Program-made: the position numbers and the translations under genes
Shown: positions 57,220-63,688 of the stretch, one piece after another
Layout of the letters: every line of letters begins with the position of its first letter
How positions within the stretch are numbered: the first letter of the stretch is position 1
Source: Rudaea sp.
Lineage (GTDB): Bacteria; Pseudomonadota; Gammaproteobacteria; Xanthomonadales; Rhodanobacteraceae
Length of the DNA: 64,000 bases
Reading direction: 5' to 3'
Assembly (NCBI GenBank): GCA_031291055.1
Contig: JARLJU010000089.1
Location: forward strand, 1-64,000
Notes under the pieces: model-generated
The model's input: the letters and a program-made list of their open reading frames with translations, nothing else
The model's database searches: none
What the model was told of the DNA's origin: nothing

Positions 57220-57261
57220 ATGTTCACTGAACCGGTACGGGGTATTCCATGGGCTTGCTAA
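57220..57261 (+). CDS. Putative 13-codon leader peptide overlapping the subtilase start
   Basis: ATG at 57220 is preceded by GGGAGG five bases upstream, the best ribosome site in the region. The frame encodes 13 residues (MFTEPVRGIPWAC) and stops at 57261, overlapping the subtilase start at 57249 and ending 12 bp before the alternative ATG at 57273. It could couple translation or act as a regulatory uORF. No homology is expected at this length. Confidence 0.4.
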   Translation: MFTEPVRGIPWAC

Positions 57262-60200
57262 AGAACAGTCGTATGAAACCGCTGGCCGGCGCCTTGGCGC
57301 TGAGCTTGCTTTCGGGACTTGCTGACCCCGCATCCGCGGCGAACGATCCAGGCATGAGCGCAGCTCGCATGGTGGCCATTGCGTTCGCGGGAGACTACAC
57401 CGGCCAGGAAACGAACAGCCTGCACGGTTCGAGCCATCTCTCGTTGCCCGGCGATGGTCAGGCACGCTACACCGTCGTGCTCAAAGACAGTCCCCTGGCG
57501 TCATATCAGGGCGAACCGATCAAACTGCGGAGCGGCAGCCGGACGTTCGACGTCGCGCCGCGGACAGCGCGGGGGCGCATTGATGTGACATCGGCAGCGG
57601 CTAATTCTTACGTGTCGATGCTGCAGCAGAAGCAGCAGGACTTCGTCAACAGCATTTCTGCACAGCTCGCTCGGCAGATCGATCCCGAAATGCAGTTCCA
57701 GCATGCGATCAATGCAGTAGTGCTGGATCTGACCGAAGCCGAAGCAGAGCAACTGCGTCAGCGCGACGACGTGCTGATGCTGGACAGGGAGCATTTCGAG
57801 GAACTGCTGACCGACCGCGGCCCGAGCTTCATTGGCGCGGACCAGATCTGGAACGGCTTCGCGACAGGCGGCGCGATGTCGAAGGGCGAAGGCGTCGTGA
57901 TCGGCGAACTCGATACCGGCATCGCCTGGGACAGTCCGTCATTCGCGGGCACCGGTCCGATCGACGGATACGTGCATGTCAATCCGCTCGGCTCCGGTAA
58001 TTTCCTGGGCACCTGCAAGACCGGCGGTGTCGATGCCGGGCGCTGCAACAACAAGCTCGTCGGCATGTACAGCTACGTGACTGGCGTCACCAGTGCGGCC
58101 GACGATGAGGGTCATGGTTCGCATACGGCGAGTACGGTCGCCGGCAACCAGCGTCCTGCGAGCTACATCGGCGGCACGTTCACGATTTCCGGCGTAGCGC
58201 CGCATGCCAATGTCATTGCCTACAAGGTCTGTGCGGCCGGCAACGGCGCAACCTGCGCCAGTACCGCGTCAACATCGGCGGCGAATCAGGCAGTGGCAGA
58301 CGGTATCGTCGACGCGATCAACTTCTCGATCGGCGGCGGCACCGATCCGTGGAACGATGCGACCTCACTGGCCTTCCTCGGCGCGGTGAATGCGGGCATC
58401 TTCGTCGCCACCGCCGGCGGCAACGACGGCCCGGTCGCATCGAGCATCAGTCACATCGAGCCGTGGACAGTAACCGCCGCGGCCTCGTCCGAGGATCGCG
58501 TCATCGGCTTTCCGTTCAATCTGACGGGCCCGGGTTCGCCGCCGGCCAATACGCAGAATCTGGCCCTGCGGCCGGCATCCGCGCCGTTGCCGACGGCGGA
58601 TCTGGTGAACGTACCGCTCATCCAGAGCCCGACCTTTGCCGATGGCAGCAATGATGGCTGCGCAGCTTATCCAGCCGGTACCTTCCTGCAGGGAGCGACG
58701 CCGGCAATTGCGGTGCTGAATCTGAACCAGAACGCGAGCAATTGTGGCAGCGGCGTACGCAAGACCAACGCGACCAATGCCGGTGCCATCGGCGTCATCT
58801 ACGTCGACCCGGCGTACATCAATCTCGGCGCCAGCGGCAATGCCTGGTCAATGCTGCTGTCCGACTGGAACAACGTGTACACCCAGATCCAGACCAATCC
58901 GGCGGCCGCGACCGCGTCGATTTCCGCGACAGGTGGCAAGTTCCCCGGCACCGGCGATGTCATCGCCGACTTCAGTTCGCGTGGTCCGAATGTCGGCATC
59001 GGCGGGCAATTGATCGTCAAGCCGGAGATTTCGGCGCCGGGCGTCGACATCCTCGCCGCCTATGCATCCAAGACCAGCGCCAGTGCGAGTACGCCGAATC
59101 TGCCGCAGGATGCAACGCGCGTGCTGCTGGAAAACGGCACCTCGATGGCAACCCCCCACATCGCCGGTTCGGGCCTGCTGCTGCGTTCGCTGCATCCGAC
59201 CTGGACCCCTGTGCAGATTCGTTCGGCGCTGATGCTCAATGCCAGGCTGACCGGCCTGGTGAAAGCCGACAATAGCCCGAGCGACATCTTCGACCGTGGC
59301 TCCGGCCGTGTGGACCTGGCGGCCGCGGCACAGACCGGGCTGGTCATGGACGAGACGTATGCCAACTTCACGGCGGCGAATCCGGCCACGGGGGGCAAGA
59401 TTGCCACGCTCAACTTGCCGAGCATGGCGGAAGGCAATTGTGTTTCGTCCTGCGCCTTTGCGCGCACCATGAGGAGTGCCATCGCCCACGGCAAGCCTGC
59501 GGTGAAATGGACGCTTGCGGTTTCAGGCATGCCTAGCGGCAGCACGACAGTGTCGCCGGCAAGCTTTACTGTCACTTCCAACGGCAGCGCCAGCTTCACC
59601 GTCACGGTTGATGCGACCAAGCTGCCGGATGGCGCAATTTCACAGGGCCTGCTGACGCTGACGCCATCCGATGCGACGATTCCGACCGAGCACATGCCGA
59701 TCGCCGTGAAGAAAGCCGCGCCGGCCATCACGGTGGCACCGACGTCGCTTGCCGCGACGCAGATGCCGAACACGACGTCGACGCAGACGATCGCGATCAA
59801 GAATGTCGGCAATCCAACCTTGAACTGGAGCCTGTTCACGGCAGGGCAAAACAAGACGGTGATTCCGCTCAACATCACCCCGGCGACCAGTGGTTACCAG
59901 GCCGGTTACTACACAGGCGTCACCACCGGACCAGGGTATTACGACGCGGAGAATTTCGACCTTGCCGACCAGACCACGATTACGGCGATCAAGGCCAACG
60001 GCTTCGCACTGCCTTCGGGCGGATTGACCACGGCCAACACAACGCAGATCACGTTCAGTGTCTACGCAGACGCCAGCAACAAACCAGCGGGTGCGCCGGG
60101 GTTCACGACCGGTGCGCTGGCGACGGCTCCCTTGTGGACCTACTCTTCAGTGCTGACGGGCCCAGCAATCACCTTCACCGGCGGCGGCAGTGTGTTCGGT

Positions 60201-62636
60201 GTGGATCTGACGGCGAGCGGCGTACCGCCGCTGGCGCTGCCGGCCGGCCGCTATTGGCTGGTGGCTTTCCCGACGATCATCGGAACCGGTGCCCAGACGG
60301 CGGCAAATCCGCTGTGGGCGTGGTTCTACAACAACACTGCCGCGCAGGTTGGCAATCGCCCCGTGGCGGTCCGCTCGAATGGAACTGCGTGGACTACGGT
60401 TACCACGTCAGGCGTGAACCATCTGTCCGCCTACATCGCAGGTACCGCGCCGTGCAAGATGCCGGCTTGGGCCAGCTACACGCCGAATCCGACCTCGGGA
60501 TCGCTTGGTTACAACGTTCAATCGACGGTTACGGTCAAGTTCGATTCGACCGGTCTTGCCGCTGGAACCTATATCGGAGAAGCCTGCTTCGCCTCGAACG
60601 ACCCGGCTACGCCACAGGCAGTCGTCGCGCTCAGCCTGACTGTGTCCGGATCGCCCACGGCAAGCAATGCCAATGCGACTCCCGCCAGCGTGTCCACGAA
60701 TGGCACGACGCTGTTGACTGTGCAAGTGGCTCCGGGAGCGAATCCCGTCAGCACCGGCGTCCAGGTGCGCGCCAACCTCAGCTCGATCGGCGGCAGTGCC
60801 TCGCAGCCGATGGTTGACGACGGCACCAACGGCGATGCGACGGCGGGTGATGGTATCTACTCGTACGCGGCAACGATTCCCGGCAGTGTCGTCTCTGGCA
60901 GCAAGACCTTGCCGATATCCGTGACCGACGCCCAAGGGCGTTCGACGTCCGCCGGCATCGCGCTCAGCGTCGGTCAGCAGACCGCTCTTGGCGCAAGCGC
61001 ATCGGCTACGCCGTCGACCGTACTTGCAGGGGCCGCGACGCATCTGGTGGTGACGGTCACGCCGGGCACCAACCCGGCCAGTACCGGCACCCAGGTCAAA
61101 GCCGATCTGAGCAGTATTGGCGGAAGTGCGAGTCAGGCATTCGTCGATGACGGCAGCGGCGCGTCGTTCTCGTTCGACGCAACGGTCAATGCCGCGACCT
61201 CGTCTGGGGCAAAGTTGCTTTCGGTGACGGTCACCGATGCGCAGAGCCGCAGTGCGAGTGCAGCAATCGGCCTTGCCGTGCCTTCGAAGACGAGCCAGCC
61301 GCTCAGCGGCAGTGGCGTGGCGGCGCCGGCGAGCCTGCACGCAGGCGATGCGACAACGCTGATTGTAGTGGTCACGCCGGCGACGAGTCCGGCGAGCACA
61401 GGCATCACCGTGGCCACCAACCTGTCGGCGATCGGCGGCAGCACGACTCAGCCGCTGTACGACGACGGCACGCACGGTGACGCCGTCGCGGGTGACGGCG
61501 TGTATTCGCTTGCCACGAACATCGGCGCAGGCACCAGCGTGGGCAGCAAGACCTTGCCAGTATCGATCGCAGACGCGCAAACGCGCACGGCATCGATCTC
61601 GATTGGCCTGAGCATTGCCGCTTCGGCCACGGGCATGAGCGCAAGCGGCGGTTCGGCGAACCCGTCCACGCTCGACATCGGCAGCAGCACGGTGCTGACG
61701 GCGACGATCGCTCCCGGCACGAATCCGGCCAGTACCGGGGTGAGTGCAAGCGCTGACCTGTCATCGATCGGCGGCAGCGCGTCGCAGCAGTTCTACGATG
61801 ACGGCACTCATGGCGACGCAACGGCCGGTGACGGCGTGTACTCGTACCAGACGACCATTGCCCCGGGCACCGCGCCCGGCAGCAAGGCGATCACGGTCAC
61901 TGCAAGCGACGCCCAATCACGCACGTCTTCGACCGGCATCGGCTTGACCGTTGCAACTCCGACGGCTCCCGCCGCGAGCAACGCCACTGCCTCGCCTGCA
62001 GTGGTTCCCGCCGGCGCGACGACGCACCTGTCTGTCCAGGTCGCTGGCGGCACGCATCCGAGCAGTTCGAGCATCGCGGTCGTAGCGGATCTCACCAGCA
62101 TCGGCGGCGACGGCTCGCAGGCGTTTGCCGACCAGGGCGATGGTACGTTTGCGTTCGATGCGACACTTGATGCCGGCACCTCGCCGGGCGTCAAACTGCT
62201 GGCGGTCACGATAAGCGATGGCGAGGGCCGCACGGCCGCCGCCACGATCGGCCTGAGCGTGCCGACTCCAGGTTCGCCGGCGGGTGCGGGAATTGCGTCA
62301 CCGGCTTCGGTCGTTCCCGGCAACTCGGCGCTGCTGATCGTTGCGGTGACCCCAGGCTCGAATCCGGCCTCGACCGGCCTGACCGTCAGCGTCGATCTGA
62401 GCAGCATCGGCGGCAGTGCGACGCAGCAGTTCTACGATGACGGTACGAATGGCGACGAGACGGCCGGTGATGGCTTGTTCTCGTTCGAGGCGACGGTCGA
62501 TGCAGCAACGCCTATCAACGCTTCACTGAACCTGCCGGCGACGATCACGGATGATCAGTCGCGCAGCGGCAGTGCCATGATCCTGCTTAAAACGCTGTCC
62601 GACCGGCTCTTCTTCGACGGCTTTGATGGACCTTGA
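57249..62636 (+). CDS. Large secreted S8 subtilase with six C-terminal repeats
   Basis: A protein of 1795 residues. A signal peptide (about 1-30) and an I9-like propeptide (about 70-180) precede the peptidase domain (about 190-690), with catalytic Asp222 (ELDTGIAW), His289 (GHGSHTAS) and Ser632 (NGTSMATPHIAG). A PA-like insert lies between His and Ser. After a middle beta-domain region (about 700-1130) come six repeats of about 105 residues and a short tail DRLFFDGFDGP. It should be secreted, possibly by the type II system encoded at 26.7-34.5 kb (inference). ATG 57273 (MKPLAG) is an alternative start. Single transcription unit with a terminator. Confidence 0.93.
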   Translation: MGLLKNSRMKPLAGALALSLLSGLADPASAANDPGMSAARMVAIAFAGDYTGQETNSLHGSSHLSLPGDGQARYTVVLKDSPLASYQGEPIKLRSGSRTFDVAPRTARGRIDVTSAAANSYVSMLQQKQQDFVNSISAQLARQIDPEMQFQHAINAVVLDLTEAEAEQLRQRDDVLMLDREHFEELLTDRGPSFIGADQIWNGFATGGAMSKGEGVVIGELDTGIAWDSPSFAGTGPIDGYVHVNPLGSGNFLGTCKTGGVDAGRCNNKLVGMYSYVTGVTSAADDEGHGSHTASTVAGNQRPASYIGGTFTISGVAPHANVIAYKVCAAGNGATCASTASTSAANQAVADGIVDAINFSIGGGTDPWNDATSLAFLGAVNAGIFVATAGGNDGPVASSISHIEPWTVTAAASSEDRVIGFPFNLTGPGSPPANTQNLALRPASAPLPTADLVNVPLIQSPTFADGSNDGCAAYPAGTFLQGATPAIAVLNLNQNASNCGSGVRKTNATNAGAIGVIYVDPAYINLGASGNAWSMLLSDWNNVYTQIQTNPAAATASISATGGKFPGTGDVIADFSSRGPNVGIGGQLIVKPEISAPGVDILAAYASKTSASASTPNLPQDATRVLLENGTSMATPHIAGSGLLLRSLHPTWTPVQIRSALMLNARLTGLVKADNSPSDIFDRGSGRVDLAAAAQTGLVMDETYANFTAANPATGGKIATLNLPSMAEGNCVSSCAFARTMRSAIAHGKPAVKWTLAVSGMPSGSTTVSPASFTVTSNGSASFTVTVDATKLPDGAISQGLLTLTPSDATIPTEHMPIAVKKAAPAITVAPTSLAATQMPNTTSTQTIAIKNVGNPTLNWSLFTAGQNKTVIPLNITPATSGYQAGYYTGVTTGPGYYDAENFDLADQTTITAIKANGFALPSGGLTTANTTQITFSVYADASNKPAGAPGFTTGALATAPLWTYSSVLTGPAITFTGGGSVFGVDLTASGVPPLALPAGRYWLVAFPTIIGTGAQTAANPLWAWFYNNTAAQVGNRPVAVRSNGTAWTTVTTSGVNHLSAYIAGTAPCKMPAWASYTPNPTSGSLGYNVQSTVTVKFDSTGLAAGTYIGEACFASNDPATPQAVVALSLTVSGSPTASNANATPASVSTNGTTLLTVQVAPGANPVSTGVQVRANLSSIGGSASQPMVDDGTNGDATAGDGIYSYAATIPGSVVSGSKTLPISVTDAQGRSTSAGIALSVGQQTALGASASATPSTVLAGAATHLVVTVTPGTNPASTGTQVKADLSSIGGSASQAFVDDGSGASFSFDATVNAATSSGAKLLSVTVTDAQSRSASAAIGLAVPSKTSQPLSGSGVAAPASLHAGDATTLIVVVTPATSPASTGITVATNLSAIGGSTTQPLYDDGTHGDAVAGDGVYSLATNIGAGTSVGSKTLPVSIADAQTRTASISIGLSIAASATGMSASGGSANPSTLDIGSSTVLTATIAPGTNPASTGVSASADLSSIGGSASQQFYDDGTHGDATAGDGVYSYQTTIAPGTAPGSKAITVTASDAQSRTSSTGIGLTVATPTAPAASNATASPAVVPAGATTHLSVQVAGGTHPSSSSIAVVADLTSIGGDGSQAFADQGDGTFAFDATLDAGTSPGVKLLAVTISDGEGRTAAATIGLSVPTPGSPAGAGIASPASVVPGNSALLIVAVTPGSNPASTGLTVSVDLSSIGGSATQQFYDDGTNGDETAGDGLFSFEATVDAATPINASLNLPATITDDQSRSGSAMILLKTLSDRLFFDGFDGP
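60645..62600 (+). repeat. Six tandem ~105-residue repeats in the subtilase
   Basis: Each unit carries the shared blocks NPASTG, DLSSIGGSASQ, FYDDGTxGDxxAGDGxYS and TDAQxRS, followed by a small-residue linker. Units differ in length by a few residues. Units 2 and 5 lack the DGTNGD calcium-loop-like segment. They look like immunoglobulin-like or choice-of-anchor-X type modules, possibly for surface or substrate binding. Confidence 0.85.
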
Positions 62637-62758: not shown

Positions 62759-63688
62759 TCAGTAGCGGGGTATGCCGGCATCGATCTCGCGCGACCAGGC
62801 ATCGATGCCGCCGTCGACGTTGTAGACCTTGCGGAAGCCCAGGCTGCGAAAATGCTCGGCGGCACGCGCACTGCGTCCACCGCTATGACAGAGGAAGGCG
62901 AGCGCGGTGTCCTTGGGCAGGGCGGCCGCCAGCGCCTCGACGCCGTCATCGAGTGTGCGGAATGGTTGCGTCAAGGCCGCCTGCGCGCGTTCCTCGGGCG
63001 GACGCACGTCGATCACGGTGACCGAGCCGGCATCCAGGCGCGATTTCAGTTCACGCACCGACAGCGGTTTTACCGCGGCCGGCGCATTCGGGTTGTCGAT
63101 GGCCAGACCGGCGCCCTGCGCGGTCTCGACCCAGTCGATGCGGATGCCGCGGGCGCGCTGCGCGGTACCCAGGTCCATGAAGATGGTGATCCCGTTCGCT
63201 TCGCTGCGGATCGAATGATCGTCGGCCGCGGCCAGATGAAACTGCGCCTGGTGACGCGCATCGATCGCCAGATGCAGGTCCAGACCCGGCTCGGCATCGG
63301 CGAGCGCGTCACGGATCGCGCCGGCTGCCGTGTCGCTGATCGTGATCTGCGGCGGTGTGCGATCGGGCTGCGGCAGGCCGAATAATTCCTGCAATTGTCC
63401 ACTGGTATACATCGACTGCACGATATCGGCGCCGCCGATCAACTCGCCCCTGACATACAACTGCGGGATCGTCGGCCAGTTGCCGTAGACCTTGATGCCT
63501 TCGCGGATCTCGGCGTCTTCGAGCACGTCGACGCTGGCATAGTCCGGCAGCAGTTCGTTGAGCACGCCGACGGTGGCGGCGGAAAAGCCGCAGCGCGGCG
63601 TCTGCGGATTGCCCTTCATGAACAAGACTATGGGATTCTGCTGCAGCAGGGTTTCAATGCGGTTGCGGGTTTCAGTGGATAGACTCAT
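62759..63688 (-). CDS. Monothiol glutaredoxin - HesB-like - rhodanese three-domain protein
   Basis: A protein of 309 residues. The N-terminal Grx4-type monothiol glutaredoxin (1-105) has the CGFS motif with Cys33 in PRCGFSA, and WPTIPQLYV. A middle region (about 114-203) resembles an A-type iron-sulfur carrier (HesB/IscA) in its end pattern IDWVETAQGAGLAIDNPNAP but has no cysteines. The C-terminal rhodanese domain (about 208-309) has Cys267 in CHSGGRS and VYNVDGGIDAW. Family knowledge suggests iron-sulfur trafficking plus sulfur transfer. Start 63688 gives the standard Grx N-terminus; 63733 is an alternative. Divergent or convergent partners are not informative. Confidence 0.85.
   Translation of the reverse strand: MSLSTETRNRIETLLQQNPIVLFMKGNPQTPRCGFSAATVGVLNELLPDYASVDVLEDAEIREGIKVYGNWPTIPQLYVRGELIGGADIVQSMYTSGQLQELFGLPQPDRTPPQITISDTAAGAIRDALADAEPGLDLHLAIDARHQAQFHLAAADDHSIRSEANGITIFMDLGTAQRARGIRIDWVETAQGAGLAIDNPNAPAAVKPLSVRELKSRLDAGSVTVIDVRPPEERAQAALTQPFRTLDDGVEALAAALPKDTALAFLCHSGGRSARAAEHFRSLGFRKVYNVDGGIDAWSREIDAGIPRY

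Follow-up and report, generated by a model that had tools for sequence, protein, structure and literature searches.

Both the CGFS glutaredoxins and the A-type proteins carry Fe-S clusters and are not scaffolds on which these are built de novo. In NfuA an A-type domain without ligand cysteines is joined to a cluster-binding carrier domain and acts as a module targeting apo-proteins (PMC8593673), and DsrR of Allochromatium (PDB 2k4z) is a cysteine-less A-type protein that stands alone, with no glutaredoxin or rhodanese attached. A contact between yeast Grx5 and the A-type protein Isa1 is recorded by two-hybrid in one study (PMC2447459). A bacterial CGFS glutaredoxin within a 'frataxin-rhodanese-GRX' fusion was described by Alves et al. 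in 2009, who proposed a role in Fe-S metabolism (PMC2679010).

The window considered here, i.e. the whole 64,000-nucleotide stretch of Rudaea sp. DNA that was analysed, encodes a protein in which such elements are combined in a single chain, with the following features:

62759..63688, minus strand: gene for the Grx(CGFS)-ATC*-rhodanese fusion, 309 aa and stop (ORF, Pfam, NCBIfam, homologues)
63377..63688, minus strand: Grx4-type glutaredoxin domain, residues 1-104 (Pfam, TIGR00365, Foldseek, invariant motifs)
63080..63352, minus strand: cysteine-free A-type carrier domain (ATC*), ErpA-like, residues ~113-203 (PF01521, HHalign, Foldseek, profile scores)
62789..63070, minus strand: rhodanese domain, residues ~207-300, with the active-site loop CHSGGRS from C267 (Pfam PF00581, alignment, Foldseek)

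The ORF starts with an ATG at the position used by its homologues, and a Pfam scan of the protein recovered Glutaredoxin (20-84, E 4.2e-17), Fe-S_biosyn (114-205) and Rhodanese (211-300, E 3.8e-14). The initial annotation, which had read this one 309-residue ORF as a monothiol glutaredoxin followed by an A-type-carrier-like region without cysteines and a rhodanese with an intact active site, is borne out in all these respects, and exactly so for the missing cysteines. A scan of genome contigs yielded 40 further full-length homologues, ranging from 81% down to 43% identity; in the resulting alignment of 41 sequences Cys33 of the glutaredoxin and Cys267 of the rhodanese are invariant, and the mean pairwise identity is 63% for the glutaredoxin, 44% for the middle domain and 46% for the rhodanese. 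Comparison of the window gene with its nearest relative (L004) gave dN/dS values of 0.12, 0.08 and 0.20 for the three domains in the same order, the low value of the middle domain arguing against its decay; for the wider pair L018/L024 the middle domain gave 0.93, by a counting method that is unreliable for distant pairs. The whole fusion was modeled confidently by AlphaFold2, with a mean pLDDT of 93.7 and a pTM of 0.71.

The N-terminal domain scores 130.3 bits against the NCBIfam equivalog of the Grx4 monothiol glutaredoxins (TIGR00365), above its cut-off of 117.1, and is therefore of the Grx4-type; its best Foldseek match is the E. coli Grx4 dimer (2wci). The CGFS motif (33-36), K25, WPTIPQ (71-76) and GG.D (85-88) are invariant in 41/41 sequences, and the GSH-binding residues (K, TIP, GG.D) are intact throughout. 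While this domain thereby resembles Grx4/GrxD, the fusion differs from the latter in its two additional domains and in its phylogenetic position: in a tree of 154 glutaredoxin domains all fusions form a single clade (99/98), apart from every stand-alone Grx4, including those of the same family. This phylogeny shows one origin for the fusion.

Sequence profile analysis of the middle domain with the Fe-S_biosyn model (PF01521) gave 25.9 bits in the whole window protein, just under the cut-off of 26.3, and 29.0 bits, above the cut-off, when the domain was scanned alone, with matches in 40/40 relatives; the degenerate A-type domain of the same genome's NfuA lies at a similar distance from this model (30.6 bits). 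HHalign related the domain to the ErpA and IscA-type proteins of the same genome (96.9% probability, E 1.6e-10), and a profile search against PDB sequences recovered HI1723, IscA and, weakly, DsrR. The structural comparison with IscA that the initial annotation had proposed was carried out, and the domain modeled alone by AlphaFold2 (mean pLDDT 91.6, pTM 0.80) has a predicted IscA/SufA-like fold, with Foldseek matches to IscA, SufA, HI1723 and DsrR, and not an unrelated one. Residues such as A121, A176, R178, I184, G192, P200 and P203 are invariant, but residues 106-208 of the window protein contain no cysteine; a cysteine anywhere in the domain occurs in just 3 of the 41 aligned sequences, never at an IscA ligand position, and the ligand cysteines of A-type proteins (C...CGCG) are absent from every aligned relative. 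The domain is thus a degenerate one like that of NfuA. However, its profile scores fall in the order ErpA (35-40 bits), IscA (15-24 bits) and the genome's own NfuA (9 bits), which disfavors a derivation from NfuA and marks it as an ErpA-like domain, whose ligand loss was probably independent of that in NfuA. In its architecture the fusion also departs from NfuA, with the glutaredoxin placed first and with a CGFS glutaredoxin and a rhodanese in place of Nfu; no NifU-like domain (the C-terminal Nfu with CxxC) was found in it by the Pfam scan.

The fusion of Alves et al. (PMC2679010) is likewise a bacterial protein in which a CGFS glutaredoxin and a rhodanese are united with a third domain related to Fe-S metabolism, but the third domain is there named frataxin, whereas in the present family it is a homolog of A-type carriers. 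A frataxin identity can be ruled out for the middle domain, which has no Pfam frataxin match at E <= 1. It is probable that both are the same family with the middle domain differently named, and that the existence of the fusion as such is not new. What appears to be new is the recognition of the middle domain as A-type, together with the losses of the rhodanese and the linkage to A-type carrier genes, and no experimental study, biochemical or genetic, of any member, including those of Xanthomonas and Xylella, was found in the open-access library searched.

The rhodanese domain retains D227, R229, C267, G270 and S273 as invariants across the fusions, and its Foldseek matches include GlpE (1gmx). 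As in GlpE-type single-domain rhodaneses, the active-site cysteine lies in a CxxGxxS/R loop, but here the domain is joined to others and has proved dispensable in several lineages. In ten genomes the glutaredoxin and middle domain occur as proteins of 202-205 aa, which stop directly after the middle domain, and tblastn together with reading of the loci revealed no separate rhodanese gene behind these two-domain forms. Mapped on the tree, the presence of the rhodanese requires five changes, at least four of them forced by well-supported branches. Because three-domain forms occupy all the outer branches, the simpler reading of this tree is that at least four losses removed the rhodanese, with the glutaredoxin and middle domain being kept together. 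The converse arrangement, a glutaredoxin-rhodanese protein without the middle domain, was not found among the 148 genomes of the family sample. Thus, the glutaredoxin and the cysteine-free A-type domain constitute the core of the protein, as the rhodanese was repeatedly lost and no loss of the middle domain with retention of the rhodanese was seen, and sulfur transfer, being dispensable over evolution, is likely to be an optional addition. The natural two-domain forms also represent ready-made deletion variants that could reveal what a rhodanese in cis adds.

The fusion is present in 131 of the 148 genomes of the family (tallied at a best E <= 1e-69) and in 182 of 200 genomes, or 64 of 69 genera, of the order. 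In wider samples it was recovered from 10 of 399 genomes of the phylum, all within the order, and from 7 of 369 genomes of the class, two of which belong to a family outside the order; named organisms among the matches are Pseudoxanthomonas, Rudaea, Tahibacter, Marinicella and relatives. Its presence in most sampled genomes of the order and in only two elsewhere, along with the single clade of its glutaredoxin domains, indicates that the fusion is genuine and no assembly artefact, and the number of full-length homologues and genomes and the dN/dS values, which lie at 0.08-0.20 for each of the three domains, argue against a chance juxtaposition. Most genomes of the family possess both the fusion and a stand-alone Grx4; the fusion is hence not the general GrxD, but what the order typically has as a second Grx4 protein, and no oddity of the window's genome. 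With its presence in about nine-tenths of the sampled genomes of the order, it looks like a clear departure from the Fe-S carrier set of E. coli. Nevertheless, the order as a whole does not depend on it, since the ten genomes sampled from genus g24 all lack it and keep the stand-alone Grx4 (G024, G042, G056, G071, G084, G097, G108, G119, G129, G139). One of the 131 family genomes with the fusion (G051, locus L185), assembled as a single contig, has an apparent frameshift that splits the gene close to the junction of the glutaredoxin and middle domains, which could be a sequencing error or a real split.

Neighboring genes were identified by reference searches. In five loci (L025, L026, L028, L031, L037) an IscA-type gene lies 0-50 nt upstream of the fusion, and in L040 the gene directly upstream is ErpA; in L025 and L040 the A-type gene and the fusion share an ATGA stop-start overlap. 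These upstream carriers retain their ligand cysteines. The linkage is limited to one clade of gammaproteobacterial MAGs, comprising seven loci on a 100/99 branch, six of them linked, and therefore represents one or two events and not many independent ones. Near the erpA/iscA and fusion genes of L026 (3956-4666, minus strand) and L032 (4381-5007, minus strand) there is also a regulator, MarR-like by eye, with several C-terminal cysteines, perhaps able to bind a metal or Fe-S cluster. Outside the linked clade the neighbors are an LpxH-like phosphoesterase, a GDSL lipase, a SET-domain-like protein and gyrB, which carry no Fe-S information, and the surroundings in the window are equally uninformative: upstream lie a calcineurin-like phosphoesterase and then a GDSL lipase and an aminotransferase-like gene, and downstream a convergent subtilase. 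This 1795-aa subtilase (Peptidase_S8; 57249-62636, plus strand) has a long C-terminal half made up of diverged ~110-residue repeats with SSIGG...DDGT motifs and ends in LFFDGFD, possibly a lineage-specific C-terminal signal; it is the sole long ORF of the window with such an end.

The window's genome encodes SufB/SufD, ErpA, an IscA/SufA-type carrier, NfuA as a separate gene and two BolA proteins; no match to an IscU-type scaffold was found in it, pointing to a SUF-only organism. Among the 148 genomes of the family sample, no other has the fusion while lacking a stand-alone Grx4. The other clear glutaredoxin of the window's genome is of the CAYC dithiol type (GrxC), and there is likely no other CGFS glutaredoxin; the assembly being a draft of 371 contigs with 5.4% estimated contamination, such absences are likely and not certain. 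In E. coli the synthetic lethality between GrxD and iscU indicates that GrxD works with SUF, and its partners there include NfuA and BolA (PMC8593673); a CGFS glutaredoxin is therefore expected to matter in a SUF-only cell.

We consider it probable, at roughly 0.6, that the fusion is a lineage-specific Fe-S carrier, in which the glutaredoxin would hold the cluster, the cysteine-less A-type domain would dock and the rhodanese would be an accessory. The glutaredoxin would bind a [2Fe-2S] cluster with GSH as ligand, and this cluster would probably bridge either a homodimer or a heterodimer with BolA. The middle domain, its ligand cysteines lost, would behave like the degenerate A-type domain of NfuA and dock to A-type carriers or to apo-clients. 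The rhodanese would carry a persulfide on Cys267 for accessory sulfur handling, either repairing clusters or passing the persulfide on to GSH at the glutaredoxin site, and several lineages have discarded it. The Grx4 identity and GSH motifs, the homology of the middle domain to Fe-S carriers, the rhodanese losses, the A-type gene linkage and the SUF-only genome all favor a carrier; the restriction of that linkage to one clade, the g24 genomes devoid of the fusion, the commonness of stand-alone Grx4 and the faster divergence of the middle domain relative to the glutaredoxin (44% vs 63%) count against it.

Alternatively, the protein might be a sulfane-sulfur enzyme, with thiosulfate or a persulfide as the sulfur donor of the rhodanese, the glutaredoxin presenting GSH as acceptor or reductant with release of glutathione persulfide or H2S, and the middle domain being a rigid spacer. 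The retention of C267 and its loop in 41/41 full-length members, the purifying selection on the rhodanese and its predicted GlpE-like fold are in keeping with such chemistry, but CGFS glutaredoxins are generally poor reductases, the supposed catalytic domain is the very one lost at least four times from a retained pair, a mere spacer has no need of a conserved ErpA-like fold, and the gene is linked to those of A-type carriers; we regard this explanation as unlikely. The initial annotation had raised the possibility of a scaffold for Fe-S assembly combining a glutathione-bound cluster with sulfur transfer; in a de novo scaffold of this kind the rhodanese would supply persulfide sulfur in cis for a cluster built on the other two domains. 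Of this proposal the Fe-S connection stands, given the IscA/SufA fold and the A-type gene linkage, and the derivation of all three domains from Fe-S or sulfur families agrees with it; the scaffold role itself appears very improbable, as the middle domain lacks ligand cysteines, the sulfur module is dispensable, the two-domain forms could not work in this way and the genome has a SUF system with its own scaffold. Hence, 'carrier' fits the fusion better than 'scaffold'. The least probable of the three alternatives is a sensor or regulator of iron, redox or sulfur status without any delivery role, in which the cluster state of the glutaredoxin, together with BolA, would be read out by docking of the middle domain to a regulator. 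Pairs of CGFS glutaredoxins and BolA are indeed regulators in fungi, the window's genome has two BolA genes and in most genomes the fusion has a stand-alone Grx4 as a paralog, but no regulator gene is generally linked, the MarR-like gene being on the other strand and confined to the clade of L026 and L032.

A more far-reaching form of the carrier reading, which we offer tentatively and with some doubt, is that of a dedicated Fe-S delivery protein of Xanthomonadales, in which a cysteine-less ErpA mimic, independent of NfuA, would steer the GSH-ligated cluster to ErpA/SufA or to clients and the sulfurtransferase in cis would repair clusters in place. If true, a degenerate A-type docking domain would have been invented a second, independent time. 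The family offers, next to NfuA and apparently independent of it, a second example of a ligand-less A-type domain kept fused to a carrier, so that the docking role of such domains becomes testable by comparison.

Matches covering residues 111-307 in three loci (L058, L064, L074) were considered as candidate glutaredoxin-less forms made up of the middle domain and the rhodanese, and were rejected because their translations, inspected by eye, are ArsR-type regulators joined to a rhodanese, the first half being unrelated. Together with L061 and L079 they form a separate sulfur-related fusion of an ArsR-like HTH regulator (by eye) with a C-terminal rhodanese, which occurs in several phyla.
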